Assembly: GCA_003576845.1 (NCBI GenBank)
Contig: QEVJ01000005.1
Location: forward strand, 1-64,000
Length of the DNA: 64,000 nt
Reading direction: 5' to 3'
Source: Planctomycetota bacterium
GTDB taxonomy: Bacteria; Planctomycetota; Planctomycetia; Pirellulales; PLA5
In this document: piece after piece, positions 13,019-50,502 of the stretch
Layout: every line of letters begins with the position of its first letter
Numbering within the stretch: the stretch's first letter is position 1
The notes under the pieces: model-generated
Databases searched by the model: none
Seen by the model: the letters and a program-made list of their open reading frames with translations, nothing else
Told to the model about the DNA's origin: nothing
Position numbers and translations under genes: made by a program

Positions 13019-13912
13019 CTACAGTCCCGTCGCTCGCGGCGCCGCTTCGTCGTTGGCGCTCGCGGCTTCCAACGAATGCAGCCCGCATTCCGTCTTCGCG
13101 AACCCGCTCCAGCGGCCGGCGCGTTCGTCTTCGCCGAACATCACTGCCCGCGTGCAGGGCCAGCAGCCGATGCTCGTGTAGCCTTGATCGTGCAATGGGT
13201 TGTATGGGATGTCGAGGTCGGTGATCAGCTTCCAGACGTCTTGCTTGGTCCAGTTGGCCAGCGGGCTGACCTTTACGAGGCCAAACTTCTTGTCCCAGCC
13301 GACGATCGGCGCCTTCGCCCGGTCCGGACTTTGGTCGCGGCGAATCCCGCTCATCCAGGCGTCGAAACCGACGGCGGCCTGCTGGAGCACTTTCACTTTG
13401 CGGTCGAAGCAGCACCGGTCGGGCTGCGTCTTGTAGAGCGGGCCGCCGTGGAAGGCTTCGTACTGGGCGACGGATAGCTCGGGTTGCTTCATTTCGACTT
13501 CGATCCCGTAGCGCCGCTTGATCCGCTCGCGAAGTTCGAGCGTCTCGGCGAATTGGTAGCCCGTATCCAGGTTGAAGACGTGAACGCGCGGCTCGACTTC
13601 GGCGAGGTAGTGCAAAATCACACAGCCTTCCGGGCCGAACGCCGTGGCCATGGTCAGCTTGGGAAAATAGCGTTCCACGGCCCAAGCGAGGATTTCCTTG
13701 GGAGTGGCCGATTCCAGCCGGTCGCTGTCGCGGCGAAGCTGGTCGAGCAGTTCCGGCGTGGGAACAGGGACTGAGGGCTGGGGGCTGGGGGATTCGGGAT
13801 TCGGGATTCGGGATTCGGGGGCTGCGGTCGCTGAATGTGCCGCGACTGGGCCTGTGCCAAGAACCGGCGTAATGCTTTCGGTGTCGGCAGATACGGGTGG
13901 CGTGCTGGGCAT
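13019..13912 (-). CDS. cysH: assimilatory adenylyl-sulfate (APS/PAPS) reductase CysH
   Basis: A 297-residue protein that reduces activated sulfate to sulfite. It has the [4Fe-4S] cysteine pairs typical of APS-reducing enzymes (RCCFDRKVKVL and IGCWPC), the SGIRRDQSPDRA motif, LDTGYQFAET and the C-terminal catalytic ECGLH. The cluster suggests APS as substrate. The start was chosen because a strong promoter overlaps the upstream in-frame ATG at 14005, leaving the ATG at 13912 as the first usable start. Residues about 33-50 are a Pro/Glu/Ser linker translated from an ATTCGGG-type repeat tract (13775-13821), absent from ordinary CysH. The neighbouring Rrf2 gene is a plausible regulator. Confidence 0.9.
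   Translation of the reverse strand: MPSTPPVSADTESITPVLGTGPVAAHSATAAPESRIPNPESPSPQPSVPVPTPELLDQLRRDSDRLESATPKEILAWAVERYFPKLTMATAFGPEGCVILHYLAEVEPRVHVFNLDTGYQFAETLELRERIKRRYGIEVEMKQPELSVAQYEAFHGGPLYKTQPDRCCFDRKVKVLQQAAVGFDAWMSGIRRDQSPDRAKAPIVGWDKKFGLVKVSPLANWTKQDVWKLITDLDIPYNPLHDQGYTSIGCWPCTRAVMFGEDERAGRWSGFAKTECGLHSLEAASANDEAAPRATGL
13775..13821 (+). repeat. G-quadruplex-type repeat (ATTCGGG)n inside cysH
   Basis: The plus strand reads GGG, GGGGG, GGGGG, then four ATTCGGG words and a final G run. It has more than four runs of three or more G separated by 2-4 bases, so it meets the usual G-quadruplex pattern. It lies on the template strand of cysH and is translated into a PESRIPNPES-type linker. 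Confidence 0.85.
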
Positions 13913-15861: not shown

Positions 15862-16896
15862 CTACATGAGACTGCGGTACATCCCCAGGTAGCTGAAGAA
15901 CAGCCGGAAGATCACCACGATAATCAGCGCCGCGACCATTGCCCATACCGCAAATCCGGCGATCGTCGCCAACACGCCGGAGGCCGCCTGGGCTTGCTCC
16001 TCGTATTGCCGCGAGAGTCGGTCGAGCGATTCGACCAAGGAACCGCTGTGTTCGGAGACCTCTACGGCGTCCAAAAAATCTGCCGGAAACGCGCGGGTCG
16101 ACCTGAGCGCCTCGTGAATCTCGCTTCCTGTCGCAACGGCGTTGCAAACCGTGTCCGCTAGCGAGGCGAATTGCGCGCTTCCCGACGATTCGAGCGCAAG
16201 CCGCAAGGCTTGACGCACTTCCATCGCCGAATTCATGGTGAGATGCAGCGTCCACGACAGCCGCGCAAGCGCGATGGTGCGCAGCGGCCTTCCGACCAGC
16301 GGGAGGTTGAACGCCAGGCGTTGTAGCGGTCGCGTCCAGGCCGCGCCGCGGACGGCCGAACGAATCGCCAGTGCTGCGATGGCAGCGATCGCGGCAACGA
16401 CGGATACATAAACGATGACGCCCGACGTGCCGGCCAGCCCGATGCCCAACGGGTCGAGCGGTTTTCGCCCGGGATACATCGATGCGATCGCGCCCATCGC
16501 CCAAATCAGCACACCGACGATCAGCACGGCCATCGCGAGTTGAATGGCGGGCCAGGTCAGACCGGCGAGAAACGACCGCCGGAGCTTGACGCGGTCGTCG
16601 TAATGGTCGGCGAGCCGCTTATAGACCTCGGCGAGGTTTCCGGTCTCGTCGCCGACGGCCACGAGTTGGCGAAACAGCTTGGGGAAGTACGCCCGTGGTG
16701 CGATCGCGTCGCCGACCGCTTCGCCCGCGGAAACGGCTTCAAAGACTCGACCGGCTTCGCGTCGAAGCGCCGCGGGGCCGCGTTCGCTCTCGCGCCGCCA
16801 GAGCGTCCGCACGTCGATGCCGGCCGCCGAGCCAATCGCCAACCTTCGGGAGAGTGCGGCAAGGTTCGGCAGCGAGATGCGATCGGCGAACAGCAT
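15862..16896 (-). CDS. type II secretion/type IV pilus inner-membrane protein, GspF/PilC family
   Basis: A 344-residue membrane protein with the duplicated GspF arrangement. The first half has AGIDVRTLWRRE... VGDETGNLAEVYKRLADHYDD before a transmembrane pair. The second half has EVRQALRLALESSG... VEVSEHSGSLVESLDRLSRQYE before the last transmembrane segment. It would be the membrane platform of a type II secretion or pilus-like machine. No GspE, GspD or pseudopilin gene is next to it, so the system is scattered or this is an orphan. The start at 16896 (MLFADRIS) fits the family; an upstream ATG at 16947 would add 17 residues. Confidence 0.85.
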   Translation of the reverse strand: MLFADRISLPNLAALSRRLAIGSAAGIDVRTLWRRESERGPAALRREAGRVFEAVSAGEAVGDAIAPRAYFPKLFRQLVAVGDETGNLAEVYKRLADHYDDRVKLRRSFLAGLTWPAIQLAMAVLIVGVLIWAMGAIASMYPGRKPLDPLGIGLAGTSGVIVYVSVVAAIAAIAALAIRSAVRGAAWTRPLQRLAFNLPLVGRPLRTIALARLSWTLHLTMNSAMEVRQALRLALESSGSAQFASLADTVCNAVATGSEIHEALRSTRAFPADFLDAVEVSEHSGSLVESLDRLSRQYEEQAQAASGVLATIAGFAVWAMVAALIIVVIFRLFFSYLGMYRSLM

Positions 16897-17118
16897 AGCT
16901 TTCAGAATAAGACCGCCGCCGCGGCCAAGAAAGCCGTTCCTCCACATTTCGCCCCCGGGGCCCCATTTAGCCCCCCGGTGAACACGCCGGGGGCAAGGCG
17001 CGCGAACGTCGCCAATCGCCCGTTACCAGCAAGCCCGTCCCCGACGAACGCCCGACCGCGCAATCCCGGCGAACGCGGCCCTTGAGGCCGAGACGCGCGA
17101 TAAAGTAAATCCGGCAAA

Positions 17119-17130
17119 GTTTGTACAAAC
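17119..17130. promoter_or_regulatory. perfect palindrome, likely operator upstream of csrA
   Basis: GTTTGTACAAAC is a perfect 12-base palindrome ending 11 bases before the -35 element. Its half-site TTTGTA recurs at 17141-17146, 17153-17158 and 17161-17166. The start-to-start distances between 17120, 17141 and 17161 are about two helical turns (21 and 20 bases). This arrangement suggests cooperative binding of a dimeric regulator. Confidence 0.6.
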
Positions 17131-17141
17131 CTACCCGGCGT

Positions 17142-17170
17142 TTGTAATCTTGTTTGTAGATTTGTACACT
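17142..17170 (+). promoter_or_regulatory. sigma70-type promoter of csrA
   Basis: TTGTAA (17142-17147), a 17-base spacer and TACACT (17165-17170). TTTGTA half-sites overlap the -35 element, the spacer and the -10 element. Confidence 0.65.
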
Positions 17171-17368
17171 ATCGCGAATCGTCCCGGCGCTGCGGTCGCG
17201 TGTCCAACCTCAGGCACCGCAACGCTTTACGAAAAACCGGCAAAAGGCGAGCGAAGTTTGGCACACGTCGTGCTTTAACCGCCTCGCATCACTTCGGTTC
17301 TCCTCACCTCTCGTCAATCACCTCACTGACGACCACCCCGTCGCCATCGCATCGCAAAGGAGTGTGCC

Positions 17369-17746
17369 ATGTTGGTTCTGTCGCGCAAGAAGGCCGAGCA
17401 AATCCAAATCGGCGACAACATCACGATCACGGTGCTCCGCGTGAAAGGCTCGGCGGTTCAGATCGGCGTCGATGCTCCGAGCCACGTCAAGATTCTCCGC
17501 TCGGAGCTCTCGTTCGACCCGCCAGCGCCGCCGCAAGAAACGTCTACCAGGGCCCTGGCCCCCGCGACGGCGACGGCAATCGCCGAAGCGCCGATCGTCC
17601 ACAGAGCCGCGGCGCGTCCGGCGCCAACGGGCAATTCGCTGTCGCAGTTCCGCCAAGAAATGCGGCTCCTCGACGCCAACCGACCGATGCCAACCGGGCT
17701 CGGCGATCGCGCCACGCTGGCCGACACGCTCGTGTTCCTGGGCTAG
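17369..17746 (+). CDS. csrA: carbon storage regulator CsrA with extended C-terminus
   Basis: RNA-binding translational regulator that binds GGA motifs in mRNA leaders. The N-terminal 50 residues are standard CsrA (MLVLSRKKAEQIQIGDNITI... VQIGVDAPSHVKILRSEL). The family is normally about 60-75 residues; this protein has 125. The extra tail of about 70 residues is rich in Ala, Pro and Thr, then ends in a less disordered segment (SQFRQEMRLLDANRPM, then LADTLVFLG). AAAGGAG at 17356-17362 sets the start. CsrA often binds its own leader, and the ribosome binding site here contains GGA. No flagellar genes are in the window. Confidence 0.93.
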   Translation: MLVLSRKKAEQIQIGDNITITVLRVKGSAVQIGVDAPSHVKILRSELSFDPPAPPQETSTRALAPATATAIAEAPIVHRAAARPAPTGNSLSQFRQEMRLLDANRPMPTGLGDRATLADTLVFLG

Positions 17747-17771
17747 CCGCCGCGCGGTCGGGCGCGTATCG

Positions 17772-17871
17772 CCCTGATCCCTGACCCCCGACCCCTGACC
17801 AGCGTCGCCCCTGGCGTGGGCGTGTCGTTTCTCCGTGACACCCCTGACCCAGCCCAGACACGCTCACGCCA
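17772..17871. repeat. CCCTGA-word tract and 15-base inverted repeat after csrA
   Basis: Repeated CCCTGA/CCCCTGA words lie at 17773-17800 and again near 17842-17850. They are interleaved with inverted arms TGGCGTGGGCGTGTC (17812-17826) and GACACGCTCACGCCA (17857-17871, one mismatch) around a 30-base loop. It lies between convergent genes and may end transcription. Confidence 0.65.
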
Positions 17872-17929
17872 AAGTTGACGCGGCATTGCAGAAGGCGTCC
17901 GTCGTTGCGCCCGATTCGACGAGGCAAGC

Positions 17930-24536: not shown

Positions 24537-27500
24537 TCATTCTGCGAATCCGCGCAGCGCCCGTCGTGCTCGGAGGCTCAACCCTGCCCCCGTTGAACTT
24601 CCGTTACCGGAGAGCACCGCGTCGACCGACGTCCTCAACGCCAATGCCCGGCTCTCCGCCACGGGCCGCCGGGCGTCCTGCCGGCGATCGGCTCGGGCGT
24701 TGCCGACCGCCGTCAGGACCCGATCCGCCGCGTGCGCTTGTGGCGCTGCGGCGATTACGGCCCCGGCCGCGGCAGGTGCCCGGCCGGGTAGGACGATCGA
24801 CGGCGTGCCCGAGGCGAGCCTCGTGCCTTGCGCATCGCGAATCCCCAGCACGTCGAGAAGCGTGATCGTGCCGTCGCCGTCGAAGTCGTGTTCGGCGACG
24901 TACGCTTCGTCACCCACGCTGGAAAACACACCCCGGGCCGACGCTTGCCGAACGTCGCGTACATCTACCACGCCGTCGCCGTTGACGTCGCCCGCGGCCA
25001 CGTTGAAGTAAAACGAGTTGCTCGAACTGCCGGCGCCTTCCGAGTCGCCGGCCAGCGTCGACAAATCCGGCGGCGCGTCGAGTCCGTTGCCGATCTTCTC
25101 GCCGTTGCGATCGACGACAGCCAGCGCGATCTTGTCGCCGCCGATCTTTTTGGCGAGCGTCCACGTTGCGGTGAACGTCGCGGCGTCGTAATGGAACGCG
25201 GCAACGTCGTATCGTCCGTCCATGCCTTGCACGATCAAGCTGCTTGCATCGAGCGAAACGGCTTGGTCGAAGGCGATCACGATCTGGTCGATATTCGCCC
25301 ACGGAACGGTCGTCGTGCCGTCTCCGGCAATGTCGATCTCGAAGCCAACGCGAACCGCCGCGTTCGTCTCCGCGGGCCGGTCGTCGAAATTGCCGCTCCA
25401 CATCGTGCTCCGTACGCGGACGATTTCCATGACCGGACCCGGCAAGCACACGAACACGTCCTGTGGATCGGCGCTGACCGTGTCGAGGTTGTCGCGGCAA
25501 ATCACGTCGACGACTCCGTCGAGCGCGTGCAGGCCGTCCGCCCCCGCGTCGCCGGCGATGTAGTCGCTACCCGGTCCGCCGACCACGCGGTCGTCGCCTT
25601 CGCCGCCGAGCAACCGGTCGCGTCCACGATTGCCGTGAATGCGGTCGTTCCCTTCGCCACCGGCAATGCGATCGCTGCCCGAACCGCCCGCGATCCCGTC
25701 GTTGCCTCCGCCGCCGCGAATCCGGTCGTTACCGAACATGCCGTTGATGCGGTCGTTCCCGTCGCCGCCGTAGATGAGGTCACTGCCGCGAAGGCGCAGC
25801 GGCCGCTGCGGATCGAGGCGAATCACTTCGCCCACGGTCGGATCGTCGCGGTTCGAGTCGGGATCGGGCGTAGGATCGATCGCGTCGATGTCGCCGGGAT
25901 CTCCAAGGATCGAATCGTTGCCGCCGTCGCCGTGGATTTCGTCGTCGCCCCAACCGCCCTGAATGAAATCGTTGCCCGCTCCGCCGCCGATCCAGTCGTT
26001 GCCGAAGCCCCCGTCGATGCGGTCGTCGCCGATGCCGCCCAGGAGTTTGTCGTTGCCGTTGTCGCCGAATACTTCGTCGTCGCCGGACCCGCCATCGATG
26101 CCATCGTGGCCGCGGCCGCCGTGGATCAGGTCATTGCCATACATCCCGTGAATGCGGTCGTCGCCGGCGTCGCCGTAAATCGTGTCGTTTGCGCGGAGCA
26201 GGGCAACGGCGCCCGGATCGAGCGGTTCGCCCGCGGGAACATTCGCGGCAACCGCGAATGCTGCGGGAATGGGCGTCGGCACGAGGTCGCGCGGGTCGCC
26301 GACGATTTCGTCGTTGCCGAGTCCGCCCGAGAGAACGTCGTTGTCCCACCCGCCTTGGATGGCGTCGTCACCCGCGCCGCCGTCGACGGTATCGTCGCCG
26401 CCACCCGCGTCGATCCGGTCGTTGCCCAAACCACCGTGAATCCGGTCGCCGCCGTACACCGGCGGGAAGATGGCGATTACAAACGGCCCCTCGTCGCCGC
26501 CGGTGATCGTGTCGTTGCCGGAGCCGCCATGAATGCCGTCGCTCCAGCCGCCGCCGTGGATTACGTCGTCGCCGAGCATCCCGTGCAAGCGGTCGCTTCC
26601 TTCGCCGCCCTCGATGTAGTCGTTGTGCGGCCGCGAGCGGACGACTTCGTCGTCGTCGCGAACGATCACCGCGTCAGCCATCGCATCGACGACGCTTACG
26701 CTCTCGGCATTCGCCGGATGCGGAATAGGCTCGATGGAGAAATCGCCGGGGTCGCCGACGATGACGTCGTTGCCGTCGCCGCCGCTAAGCCAGTCGCTTC
26801 CCCAACCGCCTTGGATGAAGTCGTTGCCTTCGTCGCCCGAAGCCCAATCGTCGCCGTTGCCCGCGTCGATCTTGTCGTTGCCGCGGCCGCCGGAGATTTT
26901 GTCGCCAACGGGACCGGGCCGAATGTAGACGATGTACGGTTCGTCGCCGCCGGAAATCCGGTCGTCGCCCGTGCCACCATGAATGCCGTCGAAGCCGTCG
27001 CCGCCGGCGATATCGTCGTCGCCGAGCATGCCGTGCAACCGGTCGTTGCCATCGTCGCCACGGATTACGTCGTTGCCGCGATAGTCGATTGCCACGGCCG
27101 GATCCGTTGCATTCGCCGCGTCGCCGGGCAACACTTCGCCCTCGACCGCAAGGTCCGTCTCGTCGGGGTCGGGCGTCGGAATCGGGTCGAGCCGGTCCCA
27201 ATCGCCCGGATCGCCGACGATCGTATCGTTGCCCGTTCCGCCGGCGAGAAAGTCGTTGCCCCAGCCGCCCTGAATGAAGTCGTTCCCTTCGTCGCCGCTT
27301 ACGTGGTCGTCGCCGCGGCCGGCGTCGATCTTGTCGTCGCCGCGACCGCCGGAAATTCTGTCGCCGACCGGTCCGGGAAGAATCTCGTTGTTGAGGCCGT
27401 TGTTTCCGCCGGGCGAGACATAGACGATGTAGGGTTCGTCGCCGCCGAAGATCACGTCGTTGCCCGTGCCGCCGTGGATGCCGTCGAATCCGTCGCCGCC

Positions 27501-50131: not shown

Positions 50132-50502
50132 GCCGCAATCATACTATAAATCCGCCGGCTACGACACAAGTTGCGTCGGGTGGGGCTACGCCTACCGCCC
50201 ACCGTGCACACCGAGCAGGAGCGACACTGACGGCGGCAAGCGCGCGATAAAGGGCTAGCGATGGGAAGCGAGCGTTGTGGCGGCAAATGGACCGCATGGT
50301 GGGGACGACCCACCCGAAGCCTCCTGTCACGCTCCCCGAATCCCGAATCCCGAATCCCGAATCCCGCCCCCCGCTCGTTACACTCCCGTTGCGCGGTTTC
50401 GGCTCGAAAAGCCGTATTCTATAAGGGGTTCGGTCGTGTTTTGACGATGCCCTGGGATGCGGCACGCGGCGACCGGCGGCAACGAGCTTGGGGAGAACGG
50501 CC
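50132..50502. other. 371-bp intergenic region
   Basis: It holds the upstream side of the antitoxin gene and a C-rich repeat tract (50333-50372). No gene was recognised. Confidence 0.5.
50333..50372 (-). repeat. G-quadruplex-type repeat (CCCGAAT)n
   Basis: Four CCCGAAT units in tandem end in CCCGCCCCCC. The minus strand is the same GGGATTC word that occurs inside cysH at 13775-13821, here between genes. The minus strand meets the G-quadruplex pattern. Confidence 0.85.

Follow-up and report, generated by a model that had tools for sequence, protein, structure and literature searches.

The csrA gene of this planctomycete raises the question of whether its transcription is governed by a dedicated DNA-binding protein and, if so, whether that protein represses or activates it. 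Control of CsrA is usually discussed as an RNA-level process, and the csrA gene of Escherichia coli combines several sigma-70 and sigma-S promoters with RNA-level feedback. The gene studied here belongs to the same family, but its conserved promoter is, as judged from sequence, of the sigma-54 type, and its predicted leader carries a single GGA. The original prediction regarded a cluster of TTTGTA hexamers in front of the gene as a repressor operator lying over a sigma-70 promoter. We consider it more plausible, at a probability of roughly three in four, that the cluster serves a sigma-54-dependent csrA promoter as its upstream activating sequence (enhancer). "The window" refers here to the whole 64-kb stretch of DNA that was analysed, and the relatives compared belong to the order Pirellulales.

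The features of the locus are as follows.

17119-17130, no strand assigned: palindrome GTTTGTACAAAC, read from the sequence
17142-17147, plus strand: left half-site TTGTAA (consensus TTnCAA), a direct and not an inverted copy, assigned by motif and alignment
17154-17159, plus strand: central half-site TTGTAG (consensus TTGTAA), the strongest block
17163-17168, no strand assigned: right half-site TGTACA, overlapping the originally proposed -10 element TACACT (17165-17170)
17258-17274, plus strand: predicted sigma-54 -24/-12 promoter TTGGCACACGTCGTGCT, with GG at 17260 and GC at 17272 (score 11/12)
17285-17368, plus strand: predicted 5' leader, its start near 17285 deduced from the position of the -12 element
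17356-17362, plus strand: ribosome-binding site AAAGGAG in the predicted csrA leader
17369-17746, plus strand: csrA (PF02599), 125 amino acids, with a CsrA core (residues 1-47) and a C-terminal extension

The csrA gene and the TTTGTA array

The csrA product matches PF02599 with 76.5 bits (cut-off 27; 1.5e-21) and TIGR00202 with 68.1 bits, slightly below the cut-off of 70.1. Residues L4, R6 and R44 are invariant among 30 aligned members of its clade. In the genome of the window, seven CsrA matches pass the Pfam cut-off and an eighth is weaker, and up to 14 per genome occur in the order among the matches listed. The csrA leader shows no unusual folding (z 0.32, computed on 17284-17420), its only GGA lies within the ribosome-binding site, and the interval 16900-17900 gave no Rfam match at the gathering threshold. 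Two short paralogous csrA copies, one from the window's genome (L036) and one from a genome of the same genus (L014), each have a sigma-54 site near -200, and their long leaders, which contain CCCGGGGGGGCCA, resemble one another and could be structured. At another locus (L013 of genome G038), about a dozen ACAGATTACCC[CG]TG units lie beside a csrA match at locus positions before 1501; as this match is on the minus strand, the units are on its 3' side.

The perfect palindrome and the three further TTTGTA copies described earlier are present upstream of csrA. On the plus strand, TTTGTA begins at 17120, 17141, 17153 and 17161, and a minus-strand copy occupies 17124-17129, so that five of the 12 copies in the window fall into this array. 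When 17119-17170 was shuffled, five copies of TTTGTA appeared in none of 5000 mononucleotide and none of 5000 dinucleotide shuffles, and any hexamer reached five copies in six and three of them, respectively. The cluster exceeds chance. It is no proof of function by itself, because three other hexamers (CGCCCC, CCCGAA and CGCGGC) likewise reach at least five copies within 52 bp somewhere in the window. Nowhere else in the whole genome do three TTTGTA copies follow one another in the same orientation with gaps of no more than 25 bp. Helical phasing of the copies had also been proposed; the plus-strand spacings are 21, 12 and 8 bp, of which the first is near whole helical turns, but the other two are not.

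Elsewhere in the window, a second small cluster, GTACAC with TTACAAA, is located at 26454-26483, with no strict sigma-54 site there. Repeat units of GAATCCC / ATTCGGG at about 13765-13840 and at 50311-50390 look like a short dispersed or slipped repeat.

The palindrome itself is weak evidence, since the window contains 35 perfect 12-bp palindromes against about 16 expected in uniform random sequence. The genome search suggested earlier yielded one perfect copy of GTTTGTACAAAC in 7.05 Mb and two copies with one mismatch; the single perfect copy rules out a palindrome regulon, and the palindrome was rejected as a regulon marker. Its 10-bp core, TTTGTACAAA, occurs in three (L004, L148 and L150) of 132 promoters that have a sigma-54 site, a set that includes copies related to the motif training set described below, five promoters selected by the motif, and no ortholog from the window's own genus. 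Two of the six CsrA matches of the sole other genome of that genus had been taken (L014 and L074), neither of them in the clade of the window gene. Being represented by one perfect genomic copy and rare in relatives, the palindrome is not the conserved part of the array and is probably an accessory or lineage-specific extra pair of half-sites.

A predicted sigma-54 promoter and a conserved upstream element

The predicted promoter TTGGCACACGTCGTGCT matches NTGGCA-N7-TGC[AT], a pattern that occurs nowhere else on the two strands of the window, and its GG and GC are 10 bp apart, as a -24/-12 site requires. It lies downstream of the array, at a distance of 104 bp from the element to the GG. The rpoN gene was found in the window's genome (C140:4595-5068; PF04552, 213 bits) and detected in 54 of 57 genomes. 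The window's genome also encodes 15 Sigma54_activat (PF00158) matches; 11 of them score at least 164 bits, and all ten that were scanned of these stronger proteins carry an HTH_8 domain.

The relatives were sampled as 90 distinct CsrA proteins of 47 genomes, drawn from part of the CsrA matches in 57 genomes. In a tree of the CsrA core, the window gene belongs to a 43-member clade in which most copies have a C-terminal extension; the clade was delimited by eye, with support values left aside. Loci without csrA were left out of the first 113, as were those without a recognised csrA start (L009, L013, L057, L062, L083, L093 and L113). A sigma-54 score of at least 10/12 was reached by 40 of the 43 promoters of this clade (genomes G000-G056) and also upstream of 12 of the 47 other CsrA copies. 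A later set was chosen by csrA protein similarity from part of the matches in other genomes of the order. Its 92 scanned loci, with L279, L300 and L310 left out for want of a recognised csrA start, gave 75 new promoters, and removal of five selected by the motif left 70. Scores of at least 10 were found in 57 of these 70, against 1.0 +/- 1.0 (maximum 4) in shuffles. By these sequence matches, the promoter conserved in this csrA lineage is of the sigma-54 type and lies about 104 bp downstream of the element.

Sigma-54 control of planctomycete csrA is not new, because it has already been predicted: according to PMC12316311, COG1551 (CsrA) is enriched among the predicted sigma-54 targets of Planctomycetia, and Studholme and Dixon 2004 is cited there for csrA of Pirellula species strain 1. 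The window resembles these cases in being a planctomycete csrA with a predicted sigma-54 promoter.

Expectation maximisation on 65 promoters, 22 of which had been hand-picked for having a sigma-54 site, recovered the de novo motif Ttt.aA...gtTTGTAAattTgtg.Aca with a log-likelihood of 415, against 102-109 in three shuffled sets. The 22 came from 36 planctomycete loci, from which eight genome duplicates and six loci with an unconvincing sigma-54 site (L129, L134, L142, L174, L177 and L181) were left out. Alignment of 110 elements, picked by the motif itself, gives the consensus TTnCAA-N5-TTGTAA-N4-TGTnCA, the half-sites of which are about one helical turn apart; in the central block, the third position is G at a frequency of 0.99 and the fifth is A at 1.00. 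The window copy spans 17142-17168, its left half-site being placed by eye, one base off the ungapped motif start. The element is degenerate, and the orientation and spacing of its half-sites vary, which counts against the enhancer reading.

A sigma-54 site (score of at least 8) with the element 94-142 bp upstream was found in 38 of the 43 clade promoters and was absent in five; by the same motif, which had been trained on the clade, none of the 47 promoters in front of other CsrA copies showed the combination. By hand tally, the 38 genomes that have it span 18 of the 20 sampled families, with families f8 and f17 as the exceptions, and three f17 members of the later set (L252, L288 and L311) have a sigma-54 site and a motif match at 105-115 bp. 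A paired search of 246 Pirellulales genomes for TTTGTAA with TGGCA-N7-TGC 80-110 bp further on matched 53 genomes. At 12 of the 30 loci listed, csrA was directly downstream, and a reversed-pattern control also matched often. The conservation expected upstream of csrA in relatives was not found for the palindrome; the core TTnCAA-N5-TTGTAA-N4-TGTnCA is conserved across the order Pirellulales. The comparison supports the TTTGTA sites as a real cis-regulatory element of csrA.

The sigma-70 promoter that had been placed under the array fares less well. The pair TTGTAA-17-TACACT is an 8/12 match by eye, and a scan of 16500-17900 at a threshold of at least 9/12 detected no sigma-70-like site. A repressor operator over this promoter, bound cooperatively, would account for the weak -35/-10 pair being overlapped by clustered half-sites, and TGTACACT or a near variant does occur 3' of the core in some orthologs. 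Among the 110 aligned elements, GTACA follows the core in 45, but TACACT or TACAGT in just 26, and relatives such as L077 and L032 have TACAAA at the -10-like position. As the conserved promoter is the sigma-54 one, and a repressor at a sigma-70 promoter leaves the phased distance to it (see below) unexplained, this explanation is improbable. Dedicated transcriptional control of csrA, which had been part of the same proposal, is itself probable; what finds no support is a repressor operator over a sigma-70 promoter.

Both promoters might also be used, with a sigma-70 promoter in the array controlled by a TTGTAA-binding factor and the sigma-54 promoter downstream of it. TACACT is indeed located 17-18 bp after TTnnAA in the window and, by eye, in some relatives (L046, L054 and L024). 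Against this, 84 of the 110 elements have no -10-like sequence, sigma-54 scores reach at least 10 in the 40 clade promoters mentioned above, and the most strongly conserved block would sit in the spacer between -35 and -10. A general arrangement of this kind is unlikely, if somewhat less so than the operator. Some lineages may have a sigma-70 promoter inside the array, though it is not the conserved part.

Distance between element and promoter

Among the training promoters, distances between the motif core and the GG form two groups, at about 100-106 and 110-117 bp, and tail off to 141 bp. Among 65 best motif matches of the later set, 44 fall within 102-107 or 113-117 bp, against 1.8 +/- 1.3 when shuffled. 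Twelve of the 70 later promoters cluster with training promoters (four are identical to one) and are outside the clean count. For the latter, promoters related to the training set (75% over 120 bp) were removed and relatives were collapsed into 52 clusters, a filter that lowers shared ancestry among promoters and does not remove it. A sigma-54 site (score of at least 9) was present in 47 of the 52, and the best motif match lay at 102-107 bp in 23 and at 113-117 bp in eight of these 47. Together, these two windows, fixed after the training and first hold-out output had been viewed, hold 31 of 47 matches, against 1.4 +/- 1.1 (maximum 5) in 200 shuffles; for the broader interval of 94-142 bp, the count is 40 of 47, against 6.0 (maximum 12). 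The remaining 16 best matches, at 111 bp (one), 125-137 bp (eight) and other places (seven), count against the enhancer reading.

The two preferred distances differ by about 11 bp, which agrees with a protein that has to face the polymerase across a DNA loop. In the mechanism we propose, a bacterial enhancer-binding protein would bind the TTnCAA-N5-TTGTAA-N4-TGTnCA half-sites at 17142-17168, the intervening DNA would loop so that the protein could contact sigma-54-bearing RNA polymerase at 17258-17274, and the ATPase of the protein would open the csrA promoter. Transcription would start near 17285.

A looping protein need not be an activator. A repressor or silencer could act from the array on the sigma-54 promoter, with the activator site elsewhere, and any looping protein would fit the phased distance. 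Sigma-54 promoters, however, require an activator, and the element lies within the interval usual for their enhancers, which makes this very unlikely.

The element could finally be a site for DNA bending by IHF or HU and not an enhancer. The IHF consensus is WATCAANNNNTTR, which TTnCAA-N5-TTG resembles with one base off in spacing, but the conservation of TTGTAA extends past the IHF pattern. No IHF-like site (at least 7/9) was found upstream of the window's sigma-54 site, a result that counts against the enhancer reading, although an IHF site between enhancer and promoter is optional. In the 132 promoters, IHF-like matches (at least 8/9) number 27, against a background of 10.7 +/- 3.1, an enrichment that is weak because several matches come from close relatives and one genome was counted twice. 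They lie mostly 30-49 bp from the GG (15 of 27), with three of 27 at 100-109 bp. A bending site is hardly credible as the identity of the element.

A candidate activator and the other csrA copies

The enhancer reading places the locus beside promoters of the NtrC/NifA type, which have upstream activating sequences for enhancer-binding proteins. The likeness extends to the GG-N10-GC arrangement at -24/-12, dyad-like half-sites about 100-140 bp upstream and a phasing compatible with looping; the differences lie in the half-site sequence, TTGTAA/TTnCAA in the window, and in the target, here csrA. To our knowledge, this half-site matches no named activator.

A lead to the binding protein is offered by L195 (G000:C46:22787-24283), an NtrC-like protein of receiver-AAA-HTH_8 architecture that scores below the TIGR01818 cut-off. 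It was singled out by reciprocal best matches of the 11 stronger enhancer-binding proteins of the window's genome with partial sets elsewhere, less eight loci that yielded no usable reading frame, and was the only one of the 11 carried into a co-occurrence test across the 47 of 57 genomes with an examined csrA promoter. Its orthologs, called by hand at E below 1e-140, occur in 30 of 38 element-positive and one of nine element-negative genomes (Fisher p 0.0003, ignoring kinship). L195 is a candidate and a lead only, because eight element-positive genomes (G004, G007, G010, G018, G029, G037, G052 and G055) are without an ortholog. None of the 15 loci that encode enhancer-binding proteins in the window's genome has a TTTGTA-type cluster within about 1.5 kb on each side, or less at contig ends.

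Other csrA copies probably have a different enhancer, to judge from a second repeated sequence. In 11 sigma-54-like promoters of other, mostly short CsrA copies examined, TCTCA/TGAGA, a sequence spotted before it was counted, occurs 24 times between 60 and 180 bp ahead of the site, where shuffles give 2.1 +/- 1.5 (maximum 8); 22 of these 24 copies are 127-169 bp from the GG. Nine of the promoters have at least two copies (L008, L018, L058, L067, L071, L073, L086, L100 and L103), one has a single copy and one has none. At least two copies were found in one of 62 promoters of the window clade, that of L067, a short copy placed in the clade by the tree and counted in both sets.

These results raise the tentative idea, somewhat doubtful at present, that Pirellulales duplicated csrA and wired the copies driven by sigma-54 to separate enhancers, TTnCAA/TTGTAA in the case of the mostly extended copies and TGAGA/TCTCA in that of the short ones.

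The main text of PMC12316311 does not contain the term "upstream activating", and the passages drawn on here describe neither an upstream site nor any phasing or confinement to a single lineage; among the papers listed, no literature description of this upstream csrA site was found at the level of titles and abstract openings. The proposed enhancer, the way it is phased and its confinement to a single csrA lineage are apparently new in detail and known in kind.

For work on these bacteria, the element provides a specific DNA bait for isolating the binding protein, and the control regions separate csrA paralogs, which helps to sort the many CsrA matches that single genomes contain. A phased enhancer found across the order suggests a dedicated, signal-responsive activator that switches one planctomycete csrA copy. 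If the wiring of the copies to different enhancers is true, each CsrA copy would be switched on, at the level of transcription, by its own signal-sensing enhancer-binding protein.
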